This document shows positions 815 through 57,629 of a stretch of DNA of 64,000 nt, piece after piece. The stretch spans positions 1-64,000 of the forward strand of contig NZ_QOCF01000009.1 in the NCBI RefSeq assembly GCF_003318255.1, given 5' to 3'. Within the stretch, counting starts at the first letter, position 1, and each line of letters starts with the position of its first letter. The notes under the pieces are model-generated. The model was not told the origin of the DNA. It searched no databases and worked only from the letters and a program-made list of their open reading frames with translations. The position numbers were made by a program, and so were the translations under genes. Origin of the DNA: Ruegeria sp. A3M17. GTDB lineage: Bacteria; Pseudomonadota; Alphaproteobacteria; Rhodobacterales; Rhodobacteraceae.

Positions 815-2008
815 ATGACCGACTTTGCCGCGACCAAAGCCATGTTCAACCTTCCCCAAGGCGTCGTTTATCTGGACGGAAACTCGCTTGGACCGCTGCC
901 CCGCGCTGCCGGCGATCGGGTCAGTGACATGATGGTTCAGGAATGGGGGCAGATGCTGATCACCGGCTGGAACAAGGCGGGGTGGATGGCGTTGCCGATC
1001 AGCCTGGGTGACCGCATCGGACGGCTGATTGGCGCAGAACCTGGCAGTATCGTCACCGGCGACACCCTGTCGATCAAGGTCTACCAGGCCGTTGCATCAG
1101 CGCTTGAATTGTGCCCGGATCGCAAGGTCGTACTTTCGGACAGTGGTAACTTTCCCTCCGACCTCTATATGGTGGATGGCCTGCTTCGCTCACTCGGGCC
1201 GGAATATGAACTGCGCGTCGTCGCACCGGAAGACGTAGCTGACAATGTGACTGAGGATGTAGCCGTTTTGATGCTGACCGAGGTGGATTACCGCTCGGGC
1301 CGGATCCACAACATGAATGCTTTGACAGAACTTGCCCATGCAAACGGCACAGTGACAGTCTGGGACCTGGCCCATTCAGCTGGCGCGATTCCCGTCAATC
1401 TGGCGGCATGCAATGCAGATTTCGCGGTTGGGTGCAGCTATAAATACCTGAACGGCGGGCCGGGTGCGCCCGCATTCATCTATGTCGCCCCGCGCCTGAC
1501 GGAACAGGTGCGCCCCGCATTGTCCGGGTGGTTGGGCCACGAGGCGCCTTTTGCCTTTGATCTGGATTATCGCGCTGGCAACGGGATCGAAAGAATGCGT
1601 GTCGGTACGCCTCCGATCCTTCAGATGGTCGCGCTGTCTGCGGCGATGGATATCTGGGATATGGCTGACATGCAGGACGTGCGGACCAAATCCATTGAAT
1701 TGACCGAGTTGTTCATCAAACGTGTCGAAGCCGCCTGCCCCGATCTGCAACTGGCAAGCCCGCGCGATCCCGCCCAGCGCGGCAGTCAGGTGTCTTTCCG
1801 ATTTGCCGACGGCTATGCCGCCATGCAGGCCCTGATTGCCCGCGGCGTGATCGGAGACTTCCGCGCGCTTGACATCATGCGGTTTGGCTTCACGCCGCTG
1901 TACATTGATGAGCAGGATGTTGAAAATGCAGTCGAAATCTTGGCGGACATCATGCAGAACCGCCTGTGGGATGCACCAGAATTCAAGGTGCGCCAGCGCG
2001 TTACCTGA
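815..2008 (+). CDS. kynU: Kynureninase
   Basis: PLP-dependent kynureninase (397 residues, normal length), which cleaves L-kynurenine or 3-hydroxykynurenine to anthranilate or 3-hydroxyanthranilate plus alanine in tryptophan catabolism. The N-terminus has VYLDGNSLGPLP, typical of the family. The cofactor site is clear: D184-LAHS in the strand after TVW, and SYKYLNGGPGAPAF with the Schiff-base lysine at residue 210. The sequence GATGAGAAAAC precedes the ATG as a moderate ribosome binding site. No kynA or kynB lies beside it, so it is separated from the rest of the pathway. Its last 8 bases overlap the convergent TetR gene. Confidence 0.93.
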   Translation: MTDFAATKAMFNLPQGVVYLDGNSLGPLPRAAGDRVSDMMVQEWGQMLITGWNKAGWMALPISLGDRIGRLIGAEPGSIVTGDTLSIKVYQAVASALELCPDRKVVLSDSGNFPSDLYMVDGLLRSLGPEYELRVVAPEDVADNVTEDVAVLMLTEVDYRSGRIHNMNALTELAHANGTVTVWDLAHSAGAIPVNLAACNADFAVGCSYKYLNGGPGAPAFIYVAPRLTEQVRPALSGWLGHEAPFAFDLDYRAGNGIERMRVGTPPILQMVALSAAMDIWDMADMQDVRTKSIELTELFIKRVEAACPDLQLASPRDPAQRGSQVSFRFADGYAAMQALIARGVIGDFRALDIMRFGFTPLYIDEQDVENAVEILADIMQNRLWDAPEFKVRQRVT

Positions 2009-2579
2009 CTTCTAGCCCCGCTCCTACCAGAGCGGCAAACTGGGCAACACGGGTTTCATATTCTTCCGCGCCAATAGCGCTTGCCTTCAGCCCTTTCAGA
2101 GTGGCCGTTATCGTTTTGGCCGTCTCGTCTGCCTCCATCTGCAACCAGACTCGCCCAGCCTGATCTTCGCGCTTCAGCCACTCGGCATATAGGCGCGCAA
2201 GTTTAGCCTCGCCTTGCGATATGATTTCTGACGACATGGATTTGGTCGTATCCAACATTTCAAGCCCATGTGGGGATGCAAGGATGGTCGCCATCCCCTC
2301 GGTTTGGGCTTGAACCGCGCCCTTGAAAATGTCCGAAACCGAGCCCGGTTTGGTCAGCGCCGCGGCCACTGCAACGCTTTTCGCTGCATAGTAGAGCTCG
2401 GTTAGTTTAGTAACGATCGCCTCTTTATTTTTGAAATGCAGATACACTGCCGGACGGGACATCCCTGCGCCCTGCGCTATGTCATCCATCGAGGTCTTGC
2501 GGAATCCATAAGTCGCAAAGGCCCGAAACGCCGAGTCCAGGATCGCCTGTTGCCGTGTATCGTCTGCTACGTCTGCCAT
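2001..2579 (-). CDS. TetR/AcrR family transcriptional regulator
   Basis: A 192-residue TetR-type repressor. The N-terminal helix-turn-helix is clear: RQQAILDSAFRAFATYGF, then TSMDDIAQGAGMSRPAVYLHF (about residues 29-49), followed by the usual NKEAIV. The C-terminal ligand domain is not assignable. A GTG start at 2630 is possible, but the ATG used here (residue 18 of the longer frame) gives the usual TetR N-terminus and leaves the upstream operator outside the gene. It is divergent from the molybdenum hydroxylase pair, and palindromes lie between them, so it probably controls those genes and itself. The 3' end overlaps kynU by 8 bases. Confidence 0.85.
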   Translation of the reverse strand: MADVADDTRQQAILDSAFRAFATYGFRKTSMDDIAQGAGMSRPAVYLHFKNKEAIVTKLTELYYAAKSVAVAAALTKPGSVSDIFKGAVQAQTEGMATILASPHGLEMLDTTKSMSSEIISQGEAKLARLYAEWLKREDQAGRVWLQMEADETAKTITATLKGLKASAIGAEEYETRVAQFAALVGAGLEVR

Positions 2580-2591
2580 CCTTGAACTGGT

Positions 2592-2644
2592 GACAGTTTC
2601 TGTCCATTTTGTCAATTGACACACTGACACTTTTAATCAATTAT
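2592..2644. promoter_or_regulatory. Promoter and palindromic operators, tetR / Mo-hydroxylase
   Basis: On the plus strand TTGACA (2616-2621), 17 bases, then AATTAT (2639-2644) form a good sigma-70 type promoter for the oxidoreductase genes. A perfect 12-base palindrome TGTCAATTGACA (2610-2621) covers the -35 box. A second dyad GACAG-TTT-CTGTC lies at 2592-2604, and further TGACA/TGTCA half sites follow. Binding by the adjacent TetR protein is inferred from position only. Confidence 0.6.
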
Positions 2645-2678
2645 GTCAGAAACCAGCCACAGCTACGAGAGGTGCGCC

Positions 2679-3143
2679 ATGGCGACCGCCCTTAAGATCA
2701 ACGGAAAGCAACATCAGGTTGACCTGCCCGATGACGTCCCCCTGCTTTGGGTTCTACGGGATGAGGTCGGCTTGACTGGCACCAAATTCGGCTGCGGCGT
2801 GGCCGCTTGCGGGGCATGCACCGTGCACATTGACGGCGAGGCTGTGCGTTCGTGCCAAGTGGCGCTGTCGGATGTATGGGGCGATGTGACCACGATTGAA
2901 GGCATTGGCTCCCCGGACGCGATGGCCGCGATTCAGCAGGCCTGGGTCGATCATCAGGTGGCGCAATGCGGCTACTGCCAGTCGGGCCAGATCATGCAAG
3001 CCGCGGCGCTGCTGGCCGAGAACCCTGCGCCTTCGGATACCGATATCGACGATGCCATGCAGGGCAATTTATGCCGCTGTGGCACCTACCCCCGCATTCG
3101 CGCTGCAATCCACGACGCGGCATCCAAGCTGAAAGAGGCATAA
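2679..3143 (+). CDS. 2Fe-2S subunit of a xanthine oxidase-family hydroxylase (IorA-like)
   Basis: Small electron-transfer subunit (154 residues) of a molybdenum hydroxylase of the isoquinoline 1-oxidoreductase / aldehyde oxidase type. The plant-type ferredoxin cluster is at C39, C44, C47 and C59 ([14 protein letters not shown]). The second cluster is at C97, C100, C132 and C134 (CGYCQSG and [10 protein letters not shown]). It passes electrons from the molybdenum subunit to an acceptor; no FAD subunit is encoded nearby. The ATG at 2679 has GAGAGG six bases upstream. An earlier in-frame ATG at 2643 overlaps the -10 box and is rejected. The next gene starts 4 bases after the stop, so the two form an operon. 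Confidence 0.92.
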
Positions 3144-52189: not shown

Positions 52190-53977
52190 CTAATTTGAGG
52201 TCAGCGTTATAGCAGCGCCGGCCTCAGGCTCAACCCGAGGACGCAGGCCCAGCAAAGGTGCGATGCGCCCGATCAATTCTGCGGCCACAGGAACCGCTGT
52301 CCAACCTGCCGTACGCCGCTTTTCGCCATAAGCAAGGATGGATGGTTCGTCCAACGTTACGATCAGGACGTATTTTGGGTCATAGGCGGGAAAGAACGTC
52401 GCGAAGGTCGCAATCACCTTGTCGTCGTAATAACCACCACGCGGCTTGGGCTTATCCGCAGTGCCGGTCTTACCGGCCACATCATAGCCTGCCACATCGC
52501 CAAAACTGGCGGTGCCATCGGTCACCACCCGGCGCAACATGTTCTGCGCCTGGTTTGCCGCGTTATCAGACATCACCCGAGGACCGTATTGCGGCCCATT
52601 TTTGCGCAGAATCGTCGGGCTTACATAATGCCCGCCATTGGCAATCGCCGCGTACCCTGCCGCCAGATGCATGGGGCTGGTCGACAGGCCATGACCATAA
52701 GAGATGGTCACCGTGCTCAGTTCGCCCCATTTCTTTGGCTTCAACGGCTCACCGCCCTTGGCCTCGACGATTTCGAACGGGGTGGGATCGAACATACCAA
52801 GCGATTCCAGAAAATCCTGCTGCCGCTGCGCGCCGATCTGCAGCGCTAGTCGCCCGGTGCCCCGGTTCGAGCTGTGGACGATCACATCCGCGACGCTGAT
52901 CTTGCCGTAATTCTTGCCGTTGAACTCACCAATCGGGAAACGACCAATCCTCATCGGCCCTGAGGTATCGATGATCGTATTCGAGTTCACCAATCCCAAC
53001 TGAACCGCCTGCGCGGCAGTGAAAATCTTAAACACGGACCCCAGTTCGTAAACGCCCTGAACATAGCGATTGAACAGCGGGCTATCTGAGGGATCGAACC
53101 CCGAGGTCGGCGGGCGCGGGCGATCATTGGGGTCAAATGACGGCAAAGAGGCCGCCGAGATCACCTCGCCCGTATGCGCGTTCATCAGAACCGCTGACGC
53201 CCCCTTGGCGTTCATAATCTTCATGCCGCCAAACAGCACCTGCTCAACGGCGGCTTGAACCGTCAGGTCCAGCGAGAGCTGCAGCGGCTTAGTCCCATTC
53301 GCGGGATCACGCAGGTAGTCGTCAAATTGCTTTTCAACGCCGGCCACACCGATCACTTCGGCAGCACTGACACCTTCGCGCCCAAAGCTTGACCCACCTA
53401 GGATATGCGCCGCCAGACGGCCATTCGGGTACAACCGCATCTCACGCGGGCCGAACAGAATGCCAGGATCACCGATATCGTGCACGGCTTGTTTCTGCTC
53501 GGGCGAGATACGCTTTTTGATCCACAGGAATTTGCGATTACCAGTGAAATCCTTGACCAGGCGTTCTTTTTCCAGATCGGGGAAGATCGCCACAAGCTGA
53601 TCAGCGGCAGCAATCGGGTCGATCATCAGCGGCGGCTGCGCATATACCGAGTAAGTGTCCAGATTGGTCGCAAGAATGCGCCCTTCCCGGTCTACGATGT
53701 TGGCCCGCTGCATCGCAATGGCTGCACCCGGGGCCGAGGCCACGGGTTCTTGCGCTTCGGACGTGGCCAACATGCCCATCCGGACGCCCACGACTGAAAA
53801 GGCGCAGAAAAAGAACAGACCCAGCACCAGCAAGCGGCCCTCAGCACGGGTGCGGCTGCGGTCTTTCATGTCTTCGTGACGCTTGCGGATATTTTCGCGC
53901 TCGATGGCTTTGGGATTCTCGCCCCGCGAGCGCGCGTCAAGGATTCGGGCCAGAGGGCGCAGCGGCGTTCGGGTCAT
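52190..53977 (-). CDS. ftsI: Septal transpeptidase FtsI (PBP3)
   Basis: Class B penicillin-binding protein (595 residues) that crosslinks septal peptidoglycan with FtsW. One membrane segment is at about 48-70 (LLVLGLFFFCAFSVVGVRMGML). The N-terminal dimerisation part includes REGRILATNLDTYSVYAQP. The transpeptidase site is complete: S314-VF-K317, S369-S-N371, K503-TGT. It starts four bases inside the ftsL end. Confidence 0.97.
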   Translation of the reverse strand: MTRTPLRPLARILDARSRGENPKAIERENIRKRHEDMKDRSRTRAEGRLLVLGLFFFCAFSVVGVRMGMLATSEAQEPVASAPGAAIAMQRANIVDREGRILATNLDTYSVYAQPPLMIDPIAAADQLVAIFPDLEKERLVKDFTGNRKFLWIKKRISPEQKQAVHDIGDPGILFGPREMRLYPNGRLAAHILGGSSFGREGVSAAEVIGVAGVEKQFDDYLRDPANGTKPLQLSLDLTVQAAVEQVLFGGMKIMNAKGASAVLMNAHTGEVISAASLPSFDPNDRPRPPTSGFDPSDSPLFNRYVQGVYELGSVFKIFTAAQAVQLGLVNSNTIIDTSGPMRIGRFPIGEFNGKNYGKISVADVIVHSSNRGTGRLALQIGAQRQQDFLESLGMFDPTPFEIVEAKGGEPLKPKKWGELSTVTISYGHGLSTSPMHLAAGYAAIANGGHYVSPTILRKNGPQYGPRVMSDNAANQAQNMLRRVVTDGTASFGDVAGYDVAGKTGTADKPKPRGGYYDDKVIATFATFFPAYDPKYVLIVTLDEPSILAYGEKRRTAGWTAVPVAAELIGRIAPLLGLRPRVEPEAGAAITLTSN

Positions 53978-54342
53978 GGGATTTGCACCTCACCCAGCGC
54001 CTGAATGTTCGTGATGGCCTGCAGCTCGATCGGGTCGACGATCGGCAGGTCAGGATCTTCCGCATAGGCAATCTGATCGCCGCGACCAAATTGCTCGGCC
54101 CGCAGGGGCAAAAGGCCCAACCGTTCAAAGTTCAGATCAGCAAGCTCTCGCAACCTGTCGGGGCGATTCAGATAGGCCCATTCGGCGTTCAAAACCGCCA
54201 GCTTCACCTGCGCCATACCAATTTCGCGCTGCAGCTTCTGCGTTTCCTTCACCACCTGCTGCGTGCGATAGTTTTCCTGATACGCCCACAGCGCCAGTCC
54301 AAACACGGACAGAGCAGTCAACACATACAAAACACTCTTCAT
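53974..54342 (-). CDS. ftsL: Cell division protein FtsL
   Basis: Short bitopic divisome protein (122 residues). One membrane helix at the N-terminus ([19 protein letters not shown]) is followed by a coiled-coil stretch ([45 protein letters not shown]), as expected for partners of FtsB and FtsQ. It overlaps rsmH and ftsI by four bases on either side. Confidence 0.92.
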
Positions 54343-55331
54343 TTTGCTCTTCCCCCTAGTTGCGGCATACCAACAGCGCGGGCATCAATTTCCCCCGACG
54401 GCGCATCCGTTCGAATTGCAACACGTAGCTTTGCCGAGCGCGAACGCGGATTTTCCTGCAGCTCCTGATCATCCGGTCCCACGGCTTTACGAGTCTTAAG
54501 CGTGAACTGCGGCAGCTCCTGCTCAATCTCGGGCGCATACCGATTGGCCCGGCCCGTCTTGCCCGCACGGGACTGAAAGAACCGTTTGACCATCCGGTCT
54601 TCGATGGAATGAAACGTTACGACTGCCAGTTGACCGCCCGGTCTCAACGCACGTTCCGCAGCCATAAGACCTTGATACAGCTCTTCATATTCAGCATTCA
54701 CTGCGATCCGCAGACCCTGAAAACTGCGGGTTGCTGGGTGGGACTGCCCCGGCTTGGGTCGCGGCAAACAGGATTCTATGATCTTAACCAGGCGCAGCGT
54801 CGTCGTAAGGGGTTCGTCGGCGCGCGCCTTTACAATGGCCTTGGCAATGCGACGGCTGGCTCGCTCCTCGCCATAATGAAACAGGATATCGGCCAGTTGT
54901 TCCTCGGTCGCAGTGTTGACCAAATCAGCCGCGCTTTCACCTTCTTGGCTCATACGCATGTCGAGCGGGCCGTCTTTCATGAAGGAAAACCCGCGTTCCG
55001 CCAGATCCAGCTGCATAGACGACACGCCCAAATCCAGAACGATACCATCCAGATCCTGTGCATATTCGTCCATGCGCGAGAATACACCCTGCTGCATCAC
55101 CAGCCGGTCGCCATAATCTCCGACCCAATCCGCCGCCATTTCAAAGGCCAACGGATCACGGTCCACGCCGATGACCTTATCTGCACCAGCGTCCAGCAGG
55201 CCTCGCGTATATCCGCCCGCACCAAACGTTCCATCCAGCCAGACACCCGACACAGGCGCAACAGCAGCCAGCAATGGACGCAGCAGAACGGGGATATGAG
55301 GTTTTTCGGAAGGGGTTTTAGCGCCGGCCAT
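54339..55331 (-). CDS. rsmH: 16S rRNA (cytosine1402-N4)-methyltransferase RsmH
   Basis: SAM-dependent methyltransferase (330 residues; also MraW) acting on C1402 of 16S rRNA. SAM motif: [30 protein letters not shown]. Further: [32 protein letters not shown], and [15 protein letters not shown]. The ATG at 55331 comes four bases after the mraZ stop. An ATG four codons earlier overlaps that stop and is a fair alternative. The open frame continues far upstream through mraZ without meaning. Confidence 0.96.
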
Positions 55332-55335
55332 GCCG

Positions 55336-55839
55336 TTACGCATCCCCGGTGCCGTCAAGGAACTCCAAAGGATCAAAGTCCTCGGGCTGTTCGTCCAACC
55401 ACTCTTCGGCCGCAGCGAGTTCTTCGGATTCGTAAGTTTCCGGCTTCCAAATCTGGAACGTGTCACCCGCGGCGATAAAGAATGCCTCACCTTCAAGGCT
55501 GATCTTGTTGCGCAGCTTTGCCGGCAGCACCAGACGGCCGGTTTCATCCACTGTGGTCGGGAAGGATTGCCCATGGAACATACGCTGCAACATCTTCCGT
55601 TGCATCGACCCGCGCGGCAACGCCTCGATCTTGGCATCAACCTCTTCGATCGCCTGCATAGTATAGCATTCCAGAAATTTGCGACGGTGATCGCCGTAGA
55701 CAATTACAAGCTCAGGTGTGTCACCGGGCTGCCAGTTCGGGTCAGAGGATTCAAGCACACGGCGAAACGAGGCCGGGATCGACACCCTGCCCTTCGTATC
55801 CACCTTGTGGTGGCTTTCACCTCTAAACCTGCGCGCCAA
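55336..55839 (-). CDS. mraZ: Transcriptional regulator MraZ
   Basis: DNA-binding protein (167 residues) with two AbrB-like SpoVT repeats: [26 protein letters not shown] at the N-terminus, and [21 protein letters not shown] in the second half, each with the DxxGR pattern. It forms rings, binds TGGGN repeats and controls the dcw operon in E. coli. The start is TTG with GGAAGGGA ten bases upstream. It is the first gene of the cluster and is preceded by an intrinsic terminator in the leader. Confidence 0.95.
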
Positions 55840-55890
55840 GACGACTGTCCCTTCCGCTTGCGCCCCACTTAAAATTTACTTCCCCAGATG

Positions 55891-55931
55891 AAAAACGGCG
55901 GGTTGATCTGCTGCCACTGATCAACCCGCCG
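55891..55931 (-). terminator. Strong intrinsic terminator in the mraZ leader
   Basis: Arms CGGCGGGTTGATC (55896-55908) and GATCAACCCGCCG (55919-55931) are perfect over 13 pairs, with a 10-base loop, and TTTTT follows on the minus strand (55895-55891). It lies about 50 bases before the mraZ start, so transcription of the dcw genes must read through it. Confidence 0.85.
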
Positions 55932-56100
55932 CATTGACCCGCTGTGCGGGATGTCCAGCTGCGCGCGCCACCTGGGGGGATGTCTGCTCGCCCGCGCGCC
56001 GGATCTCTTGATTGATGAAAGCGAGATGCCTGTATGAAACCTGATTTTTGTTGTTTCGGGGTCGTTTGGTGCCCCATGTGCCTCGTCCTCATCGGATGAA
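55891..56100 (-). ncRNA. UpsM-like small RNA from the mraZ leader
   Basis: The minus-strand region directly upstream of mraZ looks like a structured transcript: a GCGCGCG/CGCGCGC stem (55961-55967 with 55993-55999), CCCGC-TGT-GCGGG (55938-55950), and the terminator hairpin ending near 55891. In Rhodobacter sphaeroides the sRNA UpsM, about 200 nt long, arises from the mraZ leader by termination at this place and is described as conserved in the family. Identity here rests on position and architecture. The 5' end (near 56100) is inferred from the R. sphaeroides length, not from a promoter seen here. Confidence 0.65.
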
Positions 56101-56744
56101 TTAGGGATGACATGGGAATTCATGGAAATCAATAAGAAATTTTCTAGCTCCATGTTCAGAATCGCAGTTTAGCCAACGCGATTGAGAAAGAAAACCACCC
56201 CACGGACACCAATTGTAGGCGATAAGAGTAACTGATACACCAAATAGGCTAACTATCGCCTCACCCCAAGTATTCCCATAATTTCCCAAAAAATTCTCAT
56301 AAGAGCGTTATTTCGTGGCTGACGTAGTGAAAATGAGCCACTTGGGTGACGAATCACCCCAATATCAAACCCCAACCACATGTGGATTCTGCCAATACCA
56401 GCAAACGCCCATGAATTCCCATGAACCGGAATCTTCATGTTATCCGCCGCGCCTGGCCCACCAGATACGCAAGGCGCACAAGATCTGACCGACTCCGCAC
56501 AAGAGACGCGCAAACACGAAATTCCAGAAAAATTTTCTGAAACCTTCCCTTGGGGAAGCACCCGCTGCAGGCCTTATTTTATTGACCCTTCCAAACTCCC
56601 ATCGACAACCAGTTGATATCTATGCATTTGCTGCATAGCAGCATTGACGTTGTCAGGTATTGTGCAATCGCAGCATTTGATTATTTTCAGTCTCAAGCAA
56701 GCGCCGGACAACACCGGCAACACTGAATACATCGAGTAAAGTAA
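56101..56744. promoter_or_regulatory. Regulatory region upstream of dcw and DUF1127 genes
   Basis: No gene is supported. Seen: five GANTC sites (56159, 56351, 56385, 56429, 56491); CATGGGAATTCATGG at 56111-56125 and again inverted at 56410-56424; dyad GGGTGA-CGAA-TCACCC at 56344-56359; GTGGCT (56315-56320) / AGCCAC (56336-56341); CTTCCC-TTG-GGGAAG near 56546-56560; and, before the DUF1127 gene, nested arms GACAAC (56604-56609), CTATGCA (56620-56626), TGCATAG (56632-56638), GTTGTC (56649-56654). No confident -35/-10 pair was found by eye. Confidence 0.55.
56264..56288 (-). promoter_or_regulatory. Triple TGGGN direct repeat, candidate MraZ box
   Basis: Read on the minus strand: TGGGA-AATTA-TGGGA-ATACT-TGGGG, three 5-base boxes at 56288-56284, 56278-56274 and 56268-56264 with exact 10-base period. 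This is the arrangement bound by MraZ in E. coli. Two more pairs with the same period are at 56421-56407 (minus strand) and 56113-56127 (plus strand, second box TGGAA). Confidence 0.6.
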
Positions 56745-56969
56745 ATGGCTGTAGCAACACATAACACCACGCTCAAAGGCGCACCGGCAACTAGCCTGGC
56801 TTCGCTGATCCAGGCGACAAAGACCCGGTTCGCGCAGTATCGCATCTATCGCCAGACAGTTAACGAGCTGTCTGAACTGTCGAACCGTGAACTGGCTGAT
56901 CTGGGGCTTCAACGCTCGATGATCCGCCGTCTGGCCCAGCAAGCGGCCGAAGAGCACGTCGCACGTTAA
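56745..56969 (+). CDS. DUF1127 protein (CcaF1-like)
   Basis: A 74-residue basic protein. The C-terminal 45 residues are the DUF1127 domain (RFAQYRIYRQTVNELSELSNRELADLGLQRSMIRRLAQQAAEE), an arginine-rich helical element. In R. sphaeroides the homologous gene upstream of the CcsR sRNAs (RSP_6037) encodes CcaF1, an RNA-binding protein that affects sRNA maturation. The same arrangement is seen here, with hairpin RNAs starting about 20 bases after the stop. Cotranscription and processing are therefore likely. GAGTAAAG precedes the ATG as a moderate ribosome site. Confidence 0.85.
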   Translation: MAVATHNTTLKGAPATSLASLIQATKTRFAQYRIYRQTVNELSELSNRELADLGLQRSMIRRLAQQAAEEHVAR

Positions 56970-56984
56970 GCGACACCGAAACAT

Positions 56985-57290
56985 CCAGATCAGGTCCTTC
57001 CTCCTCCCTTTTGGACCTGTACTTCTGCGGCGACATCTCCTCCTCCCTGATGTCGCCGCCCTTTATACCGGCCTTGAACGCCGGAACGTGACACACCGGG
57101 CACTCCTCCCTTTCCCGGTGTTGAAAGCGCGCGGCGACGTCTCTCCTCCTCCCTGACGTCGCCGCGTCTTCTTCATACCGGGATCAAACCCGGGTTCGGA
57201 TACATCGGGGCTCTCCTCCTCCCTGCCCGGATGTTGAAAAGAACGGCGGTTCCCTCTCCTCCTCCCTGGGAACCGCCGTTTTTGTTTTTC
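56985..57290 (+). ncRNA. CcsR / 'cuckoo' sRNA array, six CTCCTCCCT hairpins
   Basis: Six stem-loops in 300 bases, each with CTCCTCCCT in the loop. Stems: 56991-56997/57013-57019 (7 pairs); 57027-57037/57049-57059 (11); 57093-57100/57114-57121 (8); 57130-57141/57155-57166 (12); 57202-57211/57225-57234 (10, one mismatch); 57242-57254/57268-57280 (13, with terminator tail). Small stems CCGGC/GCCGG (57068-57084) and CCGGG/CCCGG (57178-57193) lie between. In R. sphaeroides, CcsR1-4 with this loop motif are processed from a transcript with a DUF1127 gene under oxidative stress. The loops are complementary to Shine-Dalgarno sequences. Ends of single RNAs cannot be placed. Confidence 0.85.
57242..57290 (+). 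terminator. Terminator of the DUF1127-sRNA transcript
   Basis: AACGGCGGTTCCC / GGGAACCGCCGTT, a 13-pair perfect stem with a 13-base loop, followed by TTTGTTTTT. Confidence 0.85.
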
Positions 57291-57338: not shown

Positions 57339-57629
57339 ATGGCCGCATATTTCATCGCCCAGATTTCCATTCACGACCCTGACGGGTACCAGAAATACCT
57401 TGAAGGCTTCATGCCGATCTTTGACCGGCACGGAGGTCGCCTGTTGACGATATCCTCCAAACCCGTGGAATTGGTCGAGGGCGTATGGCCCGAAGACGGA
57501 ATTGTGTTAATGGAGTTCCCATCTCTTGCCACGGCCAAGGCGTGGATAGACGACCCAGACTATATCAAGCTGGCGGAAATCCGGCGCAAAACCGCGACGG
57601 CGAACATGGTACTGGTTGAAGGGCTATAG
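57339..57629 (+). CDS. DUF1330 domain protein
   Basis: A 96-residue protein with the DUF1330 dimeric alpha/beta-barrel pattern: AAYFIAQISIHDPDGYQKYLEGFMPIFDRHGGRLL, then VEGVWPEDGIVLMEFPSLATAKAWIDDPDYIKLAEIRR. The role is unknown in the family. AGGAGC lies just before the ATG. It is convergent with uvrD, three bases apart, and its start lies 49 bases after the sRNA terminator. Confidence 0.88.
   Translation: MAAYFIAQISIHDPDGYQKYLEGFMPIFDRHGGRLLTISSKPVELVEGVWPEDGIVLMEFPSLATAKAWIDDPDYIKLAEIRRKTATANMVLVEGL

Follow-up and report, generated by a model that had tools for sequence, protein, structure and literature searches.

The DUF1127 Gene and the Hairpin Array

The window analyzed here, i.e., the whole stretch of 64,000 nucleotides from Ruegeria sp. 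A3M17, carries on its plus strand a gene (56745..56969) coding for a CcaF1-type DUF1127 protein of 74 amino acyl residues (Pfam PF06568, E 9.4e-15), which ends 21 bases before the first stem of an array of hairpins on the same strand. Six copies of CTCCTCCCT occur in the window, all of them on the plus strand and within 267 bases (positions 57001, 57040, 57103, 57146, 57216, and 57259), compared with a mean of 0.34 and a maximum of two copies in 100 dinucleotide shuffles. The full motif TCCTCCTCCCT is present five times and is absent from the shuffles, the loop at 57103 being the short one. The first-pass annotation was therefore right in assigning the motif to six loops but had counted the full form only four times. 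The loop 9-mer is found 19 times in the genome as a whole (4.44 Mb in 40 contigs), and six of these copies belong to the array.

The array folds with a minimum free energy of -147.5 kcal/mol (shuffles -98.2, standard deviation 5.0, z -9.82), a value that none of 100 shuffles attains. The predicted fold consists of six loop hairpins (56991-57283, plus strand) and two small spacer stems, and every copy of the motif is situated in a hairpin loop. Hairpins 1 (56991..57019; 7-pair stem, loop TTCCTCCTCCCTTTT) and 2 (57027..57059; 11-pair stem) make up unit 1 and are followed by spacer stem 1 (57068..57084; CCGGC/GCCGG), which is devoid of an anti-Shine-Dalgarno (anti-SD) loop. Unit 2 comprises hairpins 3 (57093..57121; 8-pair stem, short loop CACTCCTCCCTTT) and 4 (57129..57167; 13-pair stem), and after spacer stem 2 (57178..57193; CCGGG/CCCGG) unit 3 is formed by hairpin 5 (57202..57234), in which nine of ten positions are paired and one is a mismatch in the A3M17 genome, and by hairpin 6 (57239..57283; 16-pair stem, loop of 13). 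From its sequence, hairpin 6 looks like it doubles as the intrinsic terminator of the operon, its stem being followed by the T-run TTTTTGTTTTT at 57279-57289. This 3' end (57239-57289) was read directly; the terminator scan, which permits loops of at most 8 bases, has no entry there.

The minus-strand frames at 53974-56600, which look like mraZ, mraW/rsmH, and ftsL, point away from the array and leave a leader of about 0.8 kb. A match to the RpoHI/RpoHII-type promoter TTG-N18-YYANNT is located at 56660..56686 on the plus strand, and in all 37 Ruegeria genomes such a match starts 82-88 bases ahead of the DUF1127 start codon. This match fits the description of RpoHI/RpoHII promoters (TTG at -36 to -34, C-14, T-13, A-12, and T-9; PMC3441632), and a promoter of the kind known from the CcsR/CIN1 locus is predicted from it. 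Between 56500 and 57400 no sigma-70-type promoter match was encountered. The upstream alignment of the 37 Ruegeria also reveals a conserved imperfect palindrome, TGCTGC-ATA-GCAGCA (TGCTGCATAGCAGCA; 56629..56643, plus strand), which looks like a candidate regulator site. A strict pattern of this palindrome plus TTGTGCA is found in 32 of the 37 genomes, and the five misses are due to small differences. When compared by eye, the palindrome contains no exact match to the VtlR box GCAT-N3-TG-N3-T (PMC7486931).

Downstream, and outside of the RNA, a gene for a DUF1330 protein follows (57339..57629, plus strand; Pfam PF07045, E 6.8e-27). Close homologs of it (67-95% identical) are encoded in only 17 of the 36 other same-genus genomes searched, so that the downstream border of the array seems to be variable, whereas upstream the DUF1127 gene is constant, with an ortholog in 36 of these 36 genomes. 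A search with the DUF1127 protein gave 22 loci, of which 17 carry the names Ruegeria or Silicibacter lacuscaerulensis; the closest ones, which are 89% identical, are from Ruegeria.

Assignment to the CcsR/Cuckoo RNAs

As no Rfam family matches the window at gathering thresholds, the threshold was lowered. The CcsR1 model (RF02791) then yields three end-to-end alignments (positions 1-83 of 83 in every case), all of which cover two neighboring hairpins, at 56982-57064 for unit 1, 57090-57170 for unit 2, and 57199-57283 for unit 3 (plus strand), with scores of 45.6, 43.6, and 30.5 bits and E values of 1e-9, 4e-9, and 3e-5, all of them below the gathering score of 65.3. A search of the whole genome returns the same three matches, and the next one has an E value of 0.09. 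Since the model aligns three times over two hairpins each, the six loops form, on this alignment, three CcsR units of two loops each that are separated by spacer stems, and each unit displays the pair of neighboring hairpins with CCUCCUCCC-type loops of a full-length CcsR RNA. The covariance search that had been suggested in the first-pass annotation thus yields three full-length CcsR1 matches on the one hand and sub-gathering scores on the other: by the gathering-score rule, the array belongs neither to Rfam CcsR1 (best score 45.6 versus 65.3) nor to ar14 (RF02344; 50.3 bits for the best match, at 57168-57284, versus 58.8). The traits of the broad cuckoo class, i.e., a variable number of hairpins, a fixed anti-SD loop, and variable stems as described in PMC3927594, are all displayed by the array.

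Judged from sequence, the ccaF1-CcsR layout appears to be complete, with the DUF1127 gene upstream, the RpoH-type promoter match, and a terminal hairpin with its T-run. The earlier identification of a CcsR/cuckoo-type array downstream of a DUF1127 gene is borne out by the Pfam match and by the three CcsR1 matches, sub-gathering as these are. In contrast, the suggestion that number and grouping of the loops differ in kind is not supported, as three two-loop units face four such units in CcsR1-4 of Rhodobacter sphaeroides. The anatomy is that of the CcsR/cuckoo RNAs, and the working mode is probably theirs as well. A six-loop RNA of a novel kind, separate from CcsR and cuckoo RNAs, might be invoked on the grounds that the scores stay below the Rfam cut-offs and that the spacer stems lie outside of the CcsR1 model. 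However, each loop pair aligns to that model from the first to the last position, the ar14 model already places a spacer hairpin ahead of its two anti-SD hairpins, and the copy number varies even between Ruegeria species. We regard such a new kind as largely refuted and extremely improbable.

Conservation and Covariation in Ruegeria

All 37 Ruegeria genomes possess the array directly behind the DUF1127 gene, with six loops in 30 of them and eight in the other seven, and the outcome that would have spoken against the first-pass annotation, i.e., close relatives without the conserved loops, is not encountered in this set. Six loops, i.e., three CcsR units, are thus the usual state in Ruegeria, and this settles the nature of the six-loop array; the count is not distinctive of A3M17, and a variable number of modules had already been described (PMC3927594). 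On a tree made from the DUF1127 gene together with the DNA upstream of it, i.e., from only about 400 columns, the arrays with eight loops are dispersed. This tree needs five changes in loop number, at least two of them forced by well-supported branches, and a single origin of the eight-loop arrays was therefore discarded.

The exact CTCCTCCC is present in 234 of the 236 loops of these 37 genomes, and the two exceptions, one loop each in G002 and G007, both of them genomes with six loops, are one base off. Mean minor-allele frequencies range from 0.000 to 0.021 in loops 2-6, compared with 0.016-0.131 in their arms. For loop 1 the value is 0.158, compared with 0.110 in its arms, an excess that we attribute to the alignment program having displaced a loop whose length varies, as 36 of the 37 genomes have the exact motif at this place.

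Among the 30 six-loop arrays, 99.4% of the cells of 73 base pairs can pair. In 16 of the 73 pairs both partners have changed without loss of pairing (shuffle mean 7.3, none of 500 shuffles as high; 0-4 in slid versions of the structure), although the structure was derived from the same sequences and is somewhat favored in this test. The number of further pair types, one of five covariation measures, does not exceed that of the shuffles (49 versus 47.9, with 170 of 500 as high). Compensatory pairs exist in all six loop helices, for example three in hairpin 2 and five in hairpin 4, and hairpins 1, 3, and 5 are likewise backed by both fold and covariation. The spacer stems are paired in 30 of 30 arrays and hardly vary, spacer stem 2 being invariant; as no compensatory changes occur in them, covariation neither supports nor denies these two stems. 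The claim that the arms differ while the loops are conserved consequently holds across species.

Distribution Across the Family

In a sample of 295 genomes of the family, about one per genus, 246 contain one or more loop pairs with the proper spacing, the reversed-pattern control giving zero in most, but not all, of the rows listed. At E<=0.001 the CcsR1 model matches 243 of the 295 family genomes and one of 14 control genomes. At E<=10 it matches 12 of the 14 controls, and for this reason only matches at E<=0.001 were used. The gathering cut-off is passed by only 10 of the 295 genomes while 243 match at E<=0.001, so the Rfam cut-off for CcsR1 is narrow and excludes 233 of the family genomes that match. 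One genome above the cut-off, G171, has four CcsR1 matches and eight loops, i.e., the published CcsR1-4 layout.

In 34 loci from other genera, the largest loop cluster comprises between 1 and 26 loops, and these numbers are lower bounds as the loci are short. In nine of ten other-genus arrays inspected, the first loop is preceded at a distance of 19-30 bases by the end of a DUF1127-like ORF, such ORFs being judged by eye and not by Pfam, and in L181 the ORF there lies in another frame. In 18 of the 34 other-genus loci the palindrome core GCTGCANNGCNGC is situated no more than 700 bases upstream of the array, and among ten arrays picked from those with this core, eight have the N18 or an N19 form of the promoter pattern.

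The 26 loops of the largest cluster are encoded on the minus strand of L177 (genome G225, same family; about 1950-3125), where they occupy 1.17 kb behind a DUF1127-like ORF. Most of this array is built from nearly identical modules of 140 bases that contain three loops apiece (gaps of 42, 47, and 51), unlike the grouping into two-loop units, and a GGGAGGAG site is situated about 100 bases past it.

Candidate Target Leaders

The loop contains the anti-SD core of 16S rRNA, and it can pair over nine bases with its exact complement AGGGAGGAG. Leaders with matching G-rich runs, for which the first-pass annotation had proposed to search, do exist: in a sequence-pattern search, 13 places of the genome outside the array hold the 9-mer, 10 of them have AGGGAGGAG 2-12 bases before an ATG, and nine of these 10 open long frames. 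For GGGAGGAG at the same distance from an ATG, 22 places (two in the array antisense, 20 outside) were obtained, compared with five for the reversed pattern. Frames of at least 87 codons are opened by 18 of the 20 outside sites, the other two frames having 27 and 22 codons. According to Pfam, seven of these 18 ORFs encode transport functions (Peripla_BP_4, Peripla_BP_6 twice, SBP_bac_1, DctP, DctQ, and BPD_transp_1), three encode AMP-binding enzymes including acetyl-CoA synthetase, and eight encode others; the candidate with a partial GGDEF domain probably represents an internal ATG. Transport is not significantly enriched, since control genes with AAGGAGG-type sites also give four transport ORFs among 23 (Fisher p 0.16); two short ORFs had been dropped from the candidates, and from the first 30 of 82 control places two duplicates and five short ORFs.

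Conservation of individual leaders, as far as can be judged from sequence, is better evidence for targets than transport counts. The acs leader AGGGAGGAGCCTCA is found in at least 12 of 13 Ruegeria genomes, the thirteenth being G006, and the leader of a periplasmic binding protein, AGGGAGGAGACACCCG, in at least 11 of 13. These assignments rest on the letters of the leaders, and protein identity agrees in the five acs-type and two binding-protein-type loci that were checked (L204-L233). Duplexes calculated with free ends and without a loop penalty have energies of -18.3 kcal/mol with the loop versus -12.3 with the 16S tail for the acs leader, -19.0 versus -12.5 for the binding-protein leader, and -11.9 versus -15.1 for a canonical SD. 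The predicted pairing would thus favor the loop by about 6 kcal/mol at the acs and binding-protein leaders and the 16S tail by about 3 kcal/mol at a canonical SD. Overall, the target evidence is soft, because AGGGAGGAG is itself a good Shine-Dalgarno sequence.

These leaders also bear on a reading in which the hairpins act mainly in cis, stabilizing or processing the 3' untranslated region of the DUF1127 mRNA, or in which they form a binding array for the DUF1127 protein, with the loops as protein sites rather than antisense sequences. DUF1127 genes and loops travel together, CcaF1 is described as an RNA-binding protein involved in the maturation of CcsR (PMC10253847), and near-invariant loops would be expected of a protein site as well. 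However, the loop corresponds to an anti-SD sequence extended to 9-11 bases, published CcsR RNAs are described as acting on flhR mRNA (PMC8307010), and conserved, perfectly complementary leaders exist, and we consider action mainly in cis or as protein sites to be very unlikely.

Across the family, GGGAGGAG is kept in only 19 of 88 acs leaders and is thus a trait of part of the family. The 88 leaders derive from 90 of the 257 genomes with an acs match. Most of these 90 are the best-scoring ones, and three were included for their lack of an array; two leaders without a start codon were discarded, and several start codons look doubtful. At least eight complementary bases are found in the acs leaders of 31 of 81 genomes with an array versus one of seven without (p 0.41), and at least seven in 51 of 81 versus one of seven (p 0.017), with statistics that ignore kinship. 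"Without an array" means without a loop pair, and of these seven genomes G155 has a weak CcsR1 match, while the genome of the sole positive, G280, is 75% complete. Given the kinship-blind statistics, the selected genomes, and the doubtful start codons, we do not rely on a link between the array and the acs site across the family.

Some of the acs leaders (L264-L293, L294-L353) read AGAGGGAGGAGCCTCA or close to it; as GAGG and CCTC could pair and leave GAGGAG in a small loop, the acs leader itself may be structured. Another site, L187 (C12:84008-84021), consists of AGGGAGGAGTGATG behind the inverted repeat CCTGATC...GATCAGG, and its 14 letters recur in at least 8 of 13 Ruegeria genomes. The frame ahead of it looks like the end of sdhB. 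As L187 opens only a 27-codon frame, it might encode a leader peptide or give rise to a partner RNA rich in G.

Proposed Mode of Action and Comparison With Known Systems

We infer the following account of transcription, processing, stress induction, repression, and the dosage role of the array. The putative RpoH-type promoter (about 56660-56686) would drive a single transcript that encodes the DUF1127 protein, carries three tandem two-hairpin RNAs in its 3' untranslated region, and ends at hairpin 6. Under stress, RNase E, aided by the DUF1127 protein, may cut this transcript into the two-hairpin RNAs, by analogy to R. sphaeroides. The loops that would then be exposed (UCCUCCUCCCU in five of six) appear to copy and extend the 16S anti-SD core and might pair with AGGGAGGAG-type leaders, thereby blocking ribosome binding, while copy number would mainly set dosage. 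The likeliest direct targets would be mRNAs whose SD fits the loop better than 16S rRNA, the acs and periplasmic-binding-protein mRNAs first. For a ccaF1-CcsR-type operon of Ruegeria as set out in this account, we estimate a probability of about 90%. A more far-reaching version, which we think rather unlikely, would see the array as a dosage-tunable brake on conserved mRNAs for carbon uptake and acetyl-CoA formation (acs, periplasmic binding, TRAP, and ABC), the SDs of which would have evolved to fit the loop (AGGGAGGAG) over the ribosome, with the number of units (three or four in Ruegeria, up to 26 loops elsewhere in the family) having been changed repeatedly by selection.

SisA-D and CrfA of Caulobacter crescentus resemble the array in that sibling RNAs share one anti-SD motif, and their worked target is the mRNA of a TonB-dependent receptor (PMC12559287). 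The Caulobacter system differs in consisting of four sRNAs with their own promoters; these sRNAs are countered by a sponge, and DUF1127 is not mentioned in the text of that report. The existence of a sponge that acts on four sibling anti-SD sRNAs (PMC12559287), together with the high copy number of a single loop (6 here, 26 in L177), could suggest that the array itself serves as a sponge or decoy that titrates either mRNA leaders en masse or some other small RNA rich in G, instead of regulating named targets. In Caulobacter, however, the roles are reversed, with the anti-SD RNAs acting as regulators and a different RNA as their sponge, and a sponge or decoy function of the array seems very unlikely to us. 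As to Ruegeria itself, the terms DUF1127, RSs0680, Shine-Dalgarno, CCUCC, and UTR are absent from the main text of an sRNA study on Ruegeria pomeroyi (PMC4809877).

Direct regulation of mRNA leaders by a CcsR-type array, the reading that we favor, has further counterparts. The cuckoo/ar14 RNAs of the Rhizobiales (SmelA075 and SmelA099; RF02344) share with it variable stems, fixed CCUCCUCCC loops, and a variable loop number (PMC3927594), and differ in that the described members have three or four loops whereas the A3M17 array has six. A variable number of hairpin modules, an anti-SD loop, and a role in stress were thus already in print (PMC3927594, section 2.7). The locus of R. sphaeroides is arranged in the order RpoHI/RpoHII promoter, ccaF1 (RSP_6037; DUF1127, 71 amino acyl residues), CcsR1-4, and terminator (PMC10253847). 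Maturation of the CcsR RNAs by RNase E and CcaF1 has been described, and co-transcription, Hfq binding, and induction by stress are further traits of these RNAs. Both loci have in common a DUF1127 gene followed by tandem RNAs, an RpoH-type promoter, which in Ruegeria is predicted from sequence, and two CCUCCUCCC-loop hairpins per RNA; hairpin 6 with its T-run would correspond to the 3' terminator of R. sphaeroides. In contrast to R. sphaeroides, Ruegeria sp. A3M17 possesses three units and not four, spacer stems between the units, scores below gathering, and conserved candidate leaders of its own (acs and the binding protein). The array represents a known regulator in an ordinary local form, some candidate targets of which are new, and for a marine genus that can be cultured it provides target leaders that are named and open to testing, with acs as the first choice.
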